Below are positions 32,796 through 32,973 of a stretch of DNA of 32,973 nt, piece by piece. The stretch is from Bacteroidales bacterium (GTDB lineage: Bacteria; Bacteroidota; Bacteroidia; Bacteroidales; ML635J-15). Every line of letters begins with the position of its first letter. The first letter of the stretch is position 1. A program made the position numbers and the translations under genes. The stretch covers positions 1-32,973 of the forward strand of contig JAQIBY010000161.1 in NCBI GenBank assembly GCA_027858835.1, given 5' to 3'. The notes below the pieces were generated by a model. The model had not been told where the DNA came from, did no database searches, and was given only the letters and a program-made list of their open reading frames with translations.

Positions 32796-32803
32796 TACCT
32801 TTG
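32796..32803 (+). promoter_or_regulatory. promoter of the tRNA-like gene
   Basis: TACCTTTG is an exact -7 element ten bases before the mature tRNA end. TTTA about 20 bases further upstream approximates the -33 TTTG. Transcription should start around 32809. Confidence 0.6.
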
Positions 32804-32812
32804 CATGCATAA

Positions 32813-32884
32813 GCGGGAGTAGCTCAGTGGTAGAGCATAAGCTTCCAAAGCTGAGGGTCGCGGGTTCGATCCCCGTTTCCCGCT
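32813..32884 (+). tRNA. tRNA-Gly-type gene with ambiguous anticodon (TCC or CCA)
   Basis: The cloverleaf folds fully over 72 nt: acceptor GCGGGAG/TTCCCGC, D-stem GCTC/GAGC, T-stem GCGGG/CCCGT with loop TTCGATC, variable loop GGGTC. G1-C72, C2-G71, G3-C70 and discriminator T73 are glycine identity elements. The anticodon arm is odd: TAAGC/GCTGA (one A-G mismatch) closes the loop TTCCAAA, which places CCA (Trp) at positions 34-36 (32845-32847), while TCC (Gly) would require an unpaired stem shift to 32844-32846. The 3' CCA is not encoded. It is followed after two bases by a GIY-YIG nuclease start codon. It may be a functional tRNA-Gly, a decayed copy, or a tRNA-like part of a mobile unit. Confidence 0.75.
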
Positions 32885-32886
32885 CA

Positions 32887-32973
32887 ATGAAGACAGGGGT
32901 ATATATTTTGACATGTAGTAATGGAAGATTTTATGTCGGCAGTACGAATAATCTTGAACGTAGGTTAGAGCAA
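32887..32973 (+). CDS. GIY-YIG nuclease-domain protein (5' end only)
   Basis: From the ATG at 32887 the frame reads 29 codons without stop to the window edge: MKTGVYILTCSNGRFYVGST then NNLERRLEQ. GVY and YVG, ten residues apart, are the two halves of the GIY-YIG motif, and the arginine in ERRL fits the conserved helix residue. Small stand-alone proteins of this family (about 80-100 residues) are annotated as putative endonucleases. The start lies two bases after the tRNA-like gene, so the message is likely released by tRNA end processing. The remainder is outside the window, so length and intactness are unknown. Confidence 0.85.
   Translation, partial: MKTGVYILTCSNGRFYVGSTNNLERRLEQ

Follow-up and report, generated by a model that had tools for sequence, protein, structure and literature searches.

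A tRNA gene abutting a GIY-YIG nuclease gene in a Bacteroidales genome: candidate left end of a minimal tRNA-seated nuclease element with relatives across Bacteroidota

Integrative elements with tyrosine recombinases are well known at the 3' ends of tRNA genes, where the tRNA is kept whole by an element-borne end, a displaced fragment is left at the far end and tandem accretion occurs. Group I introns with GIY-YIG enzymes are also found in tRNA genes. The UPF0213 and SLX1 proteins, which have the same catalytic domain, are known as structure-specific enzymes or as proteins of unknown role, not as tRNA-seated elements. The accessible portion of PMC13096335 describes SegB as a free-standing GIY-YIG homing endonuclease of T-even phages, which adjoins tRNA genes and can drive the amplification of segments by recombination; mobility and arrays of tRNA-seated units, such as those considered below, are therefore plausible. 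No title or abstract opening among the open-access papers listed in the literature search describes a tRNA-seated unit of this kind. The part of PMC1564403 available contains no mention of Bacteroidetes and three of tRNA, none of them concerning tRNA-seated nuclease genes.

The window analysed here is the whole 32,973-nt stretch of contig JAQIBY010000161.1 (C135) from a Bacteroidales genome (G000). A single tRNA gene was detected in it by ARAGORN, near the right end (Table 1), and Rfam model RF00005 recognised the same gene with 60.8 bits (32813-32884). The start codon of a GIY-YIG gene follows after 1 nt if the ARAGORN end is taken and after 2 nt with the Rfam end. The nuclease frame, MKTGVYILTCSNGRFYVGSTNNLERRLEQ, is open to the contig end and matched PF01541 with an E value of 2.8e-7, covering model positions 2-29 of 78. 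Of the GIY-YIG motif residues, this truncated copy shows both Tyr and the Arg only. The sequence-only reading, in which a tRNA ended two bases before the nuclease ATG and left no room for a separate nuclease promoter, was confirmed on both points. As in group I introns, a GIY-YIG enzyme is combined with a tRNA target; unlike in those introns, the tRNA is uninterrupted and the nuclease gene lies outside it. When the window end and four loci were scanned, Rfam reported tRNA and Flavo-1 only, and no group I intron ribozyme.

Table 1. Features located at the right end of the window
Feature	Positions	Strand	Basis
Promoter-like motif TACCTTTG (TAnnTTTG)	32796..32803	+	motif count; known consensus
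tRNA, Gly(CCC)-type body with CCA anticodon; intact copy of the putative element	32813..32885	+	ARAGORN, Rfam, relatives' loci
tRNA 3' part, 31 bp; exact second copy on C171 (55-85) after a hairpin	32855..32885	+	sequence match
GIY-YIG nuclease gene, first 29 codons, truncated by the contig end	32887..32973	+	PF01541, frame

The anticodon of the window tRNA was read by ARAGORN as CCA (Trp). Among the 29 tRNA loci of relatives, 27 are Gly(CCC), one is Gly(TCC) and one, from a genome of the same genus (G001), has CCA. The window tRNA is therefore taken as a Gly-type tRNA with an altered anticodon, so that the earlier assignment to tRNA-Gly stands for the body of the molecule but not for its anticodon. 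The CCA anticodon on a Gly(CCC)-type tRNA was seen in both genus genomes compared, G000 (32813-32885) and G001 (L019, 1502-1574). Each has one mismatch in the anticodon stem, at differing positions (by eye; that of G000 is flagged by Rfam). In G001 the tRNA is followed by a terminator-like hairpin and there is no nuclease, hence the anticodon change is separate from the nuclease. The CCA-bearing Gly-type tRNA may be decaying, dispensable or serving another use.

A search with the tRNA and the nuclease start revealed, in addition to relatives of the tRNA, an exact match on contig C171 of the same genome to the final 31 tRNA bases only. C171 opens with the final codons of a small ORF (ICKLIEKHSL) and its TAG; the perfect hairpin CTCCGATGCAATCGGAG comes next, then the 31-mer, and beyond it the flank is a different one. 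Agreement with this stretch reaches just 92% and 88% in two further tRNA genes of the genome. From its order of parts, C171 would be the right end of the window's element, or of an array of such elements; if C135 and C171 are joined in this way, an estimated ~46 codons are absent between them. A second tRNA-seated GIY-YIG unit of G000 lies at tRNA-Asn(GTT) on C181 (L007, 1440-1866), with a short decayed anticodon-arm piece of the tRNA recognisable by eye 3' of the nuclease. In this genome 2 of 7 GIY-YIG genes are tRNA-seated; across the window's own family, 17 GIY-YIG loci include a single tRNA-adjacent one, the window locus itself. On C25 of G000 (L001, 850-1500) a small GIY-YIG gene was observed between GGTGCCTTCGAG-type repeat copies, with no tRNA found nearby.

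Complete relatives were found in L065 and L089, from the same order and another family, where tRNA-Gly(CCC), A, ATG, nuclease, TAG, CTCCGATTCCATCGGAG and a repeated 31-nt tRNA end follow one another. The best match of the window nuclease (P0001, 29 residues) was the L065 nuclease, with 20 identical residues and a score of 105, compared with 77 for the runner-up among the units compared. The same complete layout is present at tRNA-Lys in L086, at Lys with a broken nuclease frame in L082, and at tRNA-Val with repeated units in L085. In a scan of 84,980 species the hairpin pattern was found in 12 stretches, and in five of them (L082, L083, L085, L086 and L089) a tRNA part follows it; the record titles of these five name Bacteroidetes or Ignavibacteriota, and in L083, at a contig end, the intact tRNA is missing. 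The window hairpin was also considered as a family-wide tag, and this was rejected, as the pattern occurs in just 1 of 395 class genomes and other loci have other stems.

Viral and plasmid records were also searched. Five viral records showed the hairpin pattern, and no tRNA was found in any of them in the 420 nt preceding it; a longer hairpin pattern had no match in viral records. On a viral contig (L092, 2526-2590) the hairpin CTCCGATTCCATCGGAG is followed by a tRNA 3' part, with no tRNA called by ARAGORN. One unit protein gave no match in plasmids. Among 50,697 phage records, tblastn with P0002 picked out 10 from Rhizobium phages only. In G066, 11 matches of a repeat with CTCCGATGCAATCGGTG were noted, with no tRNA in the four loci scanned (L064, L071, L074 and L076).

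A single-seed protein search that did not use profile A1 yielded 19 matches, which fall into 16 separate loci in 15 of 345 genomes. A same-strand tRNA was located just upstream at 11 of these, downstream at one (L106) and nowhere at four; in L100, one of the 11, there was no repeated tRNA piece. Profile A1, built from 12 proteins, of which 11 adjoin tRNAs and one (L097) lies at a contig start, matched 222 of 395 sampled phylum genomes at E <= 1e-12. The tRNA survey covered the highest-ranking A1 clusters, 123 among the matches listed; with G550:C29 omitted (the same as L113) and L130 dropped (a duplicate of L150), 122 clusters were left. Among these matches listed, a same-strand tRNA lay within 600 bp upstream in 89 clusters and only downstream in 19, and none was found in 14, of which 5 begin ~130 nt or less from a contig end; an opposite-strand tRNA occurred in one of the 122. 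The units are hosted by 20 kinds of tRNA isotype/anticodon among the matches listed. Weaker-scoring GIY-YIG genes were mostly away from tRNAs. In five named-record genomes a same-strand tRNA was found at 12 of 21 GIY-YIG loci, mainly the stronger-scoring ones, and an opposite-strand tRNA additionally at 2 of the 21 (L273 and L277 overlap).

The units show two mirror forms. Class A, the commoner one, runs from the intact tRNA through the nuclease and a pseudo-tRNA without its 5' end to the native flank, and the anticodon arm or the T-loop of the pseudo-tRNA is usually swapped for a perfect hairpin. In class B a tRNA 5' piece with a hairpin is followed by the nuclease and the intact tRNA. The gene content is one nuclease gene of ~80-90 aa, comprising the GIY-YIG catalytic domain only. 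Among the matches listed, 73 of 89 class A units have a tRNA piece reaching the 3' end after the nuclease (the other 16 had none reaching that end) and 84 of 89 have a tRNA piece of any kind there, compared with some match in 26 of 89 on the other side of the tRNA at the same threshold. The class B fragment began at tRNA nt 1-5 in 16 of 19 units among the matches listed. Class A pieces started at tRNA nt 42-47, just past the anticodon arm, in 25 of 73 units, at nt 56-61, in the T-loop, in 36 of 73, and elsewhere in 12 of 73, including a whole second tRNA-Val in L161 (counts among the matches listed). The hairpin stem directly before the fragment had a mean length of 6.6 bp and was at least 7 bp long in 37 of 73 units among the matches listed, whereas the controls gave means of 4.1 bp for ORF windows (at least 7 bp in 1 of 73) and 4.0 for shuffled sequences. 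The hairpin sequence before the tRNA pieces differs from locus to locus. Two class B units, L175 and L236, also have a repeated upstream flank.

Tandem arrangement was frequent. Two or more copies were found in 36 of 122 clusters, 9 of these having three or more, and the unit spacing was 300-420 bp in 40 of 48 cases among the matches listed; three further two-match clusters, each a single copy in pieces, were excluded from the tandem count. The array of G361 contains 4 units of 322 bp with a 99% match. After its last tRNA piece a different terminator-like hairpin is present, as expected if that hairpin is native.

The motif TAnnTTTG, which we take to be the Bacteroidota -7 type promoter motif, stands 9 nt 5' of the window tRNA. 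Among the matches listed, it was found within 32 nt 5' of 21 of 87 class A tRNAs, where shuffled letters would give 2.2, and 5' of the nuclease match in 1 of 87 units. A promoter belonging to the tRNA had been proposed from the window alone; 66 of the 87 class A tRNAs among the matches listed lack the motif in the preceding 32 nt. Expression of the window nuclease probably starts at the tRNA promoter and gives an almost leaderless mRNA, which would be freed by tRNA 3' processing. Such reading from the tRNA transcript fits the window, but genes that abut in this way are the smaller part of the class: among the matches listed, 9 of 89 class A units have a nuclease match starting 10 nt or less from the tRNA, and 70 of 89 one starting 70 nt or less from it, and in several others a terminator-like hairpin is seen by eye between the two genes.

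Regarding the enzyme, the 12 proteins of A1 show no variation at the Tyr, Tyr, Arg and Glu positions. All 12 are matched by PF01541, placing them in the GIY-YIG superfamily, and 6 of the 12 by the group I intron endonuclease model, with P0002 under its cut-off. The nearest solved relatives by profile were UPF0213 (E 5.7e-17) and SLX1 (E 1e-7), and I-TevI was found at 0.0068. The nuclease model had a pLDDT of 84, and Foldseek ranked UPF0213 first, with a weak E value of 1.4e-3. No recognisable DNA-binding part was found in the nuclease, which consists of the catalytic domain alone. Judged from these comparisons, it may be structure-selective rather than a classical long-site homing enzyme.

Orthologous loci with and without the unit, a comparison that had been proposed on the basis of the window, were found at tRNA-Ala(GGC) in genus g184. 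The unit is present in G827 and absent from the syntenic G212 and G932; such presence and absence at orthologous sites is what is looked for in a homing gene. Both flanks of G827 align with those of G212 and G932, and the right-flank homology restarts at tRNA nt 45, which is the start of the displaced piece. A distance of 356 bp separates the two nt-45 positions of G827. On the left side there is an extra 71 bp, a 5' pseudo-tRNA piece with a hairpin, and the sites thus differ by two pieces. The displaced piece carries ATCGG, as do the empty sites, and the intact copy ACCGG. This suggests that the end of the intact copy arrived with the element, although at its far end the displaced piece has CCGGT, the same as the intact copy. 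In the units the displaced tRNA copy is spoiled by the hairpin, and the intact tRNA keeps its sequence and with it the presumed target. The tRNA-Ala search gave 30 loci, 12 filled and 18 unfilled; of these, just L246 and L248 were aligned for synteny. The idea that the element brings a cleavage-resistant tRNA allele was rejected at tRNA-Ala, the stem alleles being mixed in the 12 filled and 18 unfilled loci.

The relationship between nuclease and host tRNA was evaluated on a tree of 105 of the 108 tRNA-labelled clusters among the matches listed, with 81 columns and with matches shorter than 60 residues left out. The tree is weakly resolved, 54 of its 102 inner forks being open. For these matches listed, the isotype label changed 41 times, compared with 78.2 after shuffling, and a value as low was reached in 0 of 200 shuffles. 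The nearest nuclease in another genome shared the isotype in 74 of 105 cases (shuffled mean 9.1, maximum 20) and the nearest in another family in 36 of 105 (expected ~6), among the matches listed. Among the matches listed, 43 elements had both kinds of neighbour, and for 41 of them a same-isotype element in another genome was closer than an other-isotype element of the same genome. The units therefore seem to pass between genomes at the same tRNA far more than between tRNAs within a genome. Ser-TGA and Met showed no isotype grouping on the tree of the matches listed, and the isotypes do not all form one clade each. Homology between the tRNA copies at the flanks could by itself produce the grouping.

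The window is best explained, with a probability of about 0.65, as the left end of a minimal tRNA-seated nuclease element that consists of one nuclease gene and a partial copy of the host tRNA. From the layout, the recurrence, the tandem arrays, the empty and filled sites and the isotype grouping, we infer cutting and mobility as follows. The nuclease would cut the same tRNA gene where it stands unoccupied, and repair from the donor would use the two tRNA copies on either side of the element as homology arms. Repair would then insert the element, leaving one tRNA whole, and the hairpin would mark the old cut site and spoil re-cutting. The compact, perhaps mobile tRNA-nuclease unit envisaged in the sequence-only reading gains support from the partial tRNA on C171, the recurrence in the phylum, the empty and filled sites and the isotype grouping. 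Leader, processing site and target had all been suggested as roles of the tRNA; that of a recombination or insertion target fits best.

With SegB the units share a GIY-YIG gene beside tRNA genes, many isotypes and tandem amplification of segments, as far as the available part of PMC13096335 goes. In contrast, SegB is phage-borne, that part describes no partial tRNA copies with hairpin-replaced arms, and it reports no favoured isotypes (PMC13096335), whereas the Bacteroidota nucleases group by isotype; the Bacteroidota protein also differs in being a catalytic domain alone, nearest to UPF0213 and SLX1. We group the tRNA-seated units with free-standing homing-type elements, as a variant. The odds are even that the combination of a single-domain nuclease with tRNA homology arms, a rebuilt tRNA, a hairpin over the displaced arm, two mirror forms and isotype-bound lineages across families amounts to a new class.

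Insertion could alternatively be led by structure: a branch or hairpin cutter similar to SLX1 and UPF0213 would act on extruded hairpins (tRNA arms and the palindromes of the units themselves) and the tRNA copies would steer by homology, with no sequence-specific homing. We regard this as unlikely, though it deserves weight in view of the closest solved relatives, which are UPF0213 and SLX1 ahead of I-TevI, the weak Foldseek agreement, the ORFs made up of a catalytic domain only and the palindrome at the junction of most units among the matches listed. However, the junction keeps one position at Asp (T-loop in 12 of 14), Gly-GCC (T-loop in 9 of 9) and Pro-CGG (anticodon arm in 6 of 7) among the matches listed, a regularity that hints at something beyond generic structure; both positions are in use at Ala, Val, Lys and Met. 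It is very improbable that the units are remnants of tyrosine-recombinase islands at tRNA 3' ends with the GIY-YIG gene as leftover cargo. The whole tRNA, the tandem copies and the displaced far-end fragment are common to both, and islands of that kind usually show their att duplication as a 3' tRNA fragment at the far end, but the units mostly span 300-420 bp and contain no recombinase, and the nuclease is the sole gene in the fully read ones (L065, L085 and L116). A hairpin replaces an arm in the displaced copy, a mirror form with 5' fragments exists, and the difference of 356 bp plus 71 bp between empty and filled sites gives no space for an integrase. An ordinary integrase island was rejected on the lack of room and the mirror form.

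A device useful to the host, guarding tRNA genes from tRNA-carrying or tRNA-integrating islands and phages or changing their dosage, is likewise very improbable. SegB, situated by tRNA genes, amplifies them under defence pressure according to the portion of PMC13096335 consulted, and tandem copies are frequent here as well among the matches listed; against this, the fully read array multiplies the unit and not the intact tRNA, and the patchy presence at one site looks selfish. Finally, a housekeeping GIY-YIG gene standing beside a tRNA by chance is scarcely credible. It would agree with the position of most weaker-scoring GIY-YIG genes, away from tRNAs, but a same-strand tRNA accompanies 108 of 122 clusters against one with an opposite-strand tRNA among the matches listed, and partial tRNA copies are present. 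Chance neighbourhood was rejected for the clade on these strand-specific counts; a single syntenic tRNA with a nuclease next to it by chance, which had been named as the finding that would speak against the unit, was not what was observed.

Should the preferred reading hold, the tRNA-seated unit would be a mobile element of very small size that carries a nuclease and is common in the phylum, given the proportion of genomes matched by A1. It would account for many small GIY-YIG genes, for tRNA fragments near tRNA genes and perhaps for contig breaks at such places. One enzyme fold matched to so many isotype/anticodon kinds, 20 among the matches listed, would offer a natural series for studying the origin of target choice. 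A further question is how cells withstand a nuclease that presumably targets a tRNA gene they need.

Nuclease-free pieces consisting of tRNA-Ala nt 1 to ~27 and a hairpin were also observed upstream of the intact tRNA, in L243, L249, L252, L253, L255, L260, L264 and others. Where read, they form units of ~70-85 bp, single or in tandem, and are possibly non-autonomous forms.
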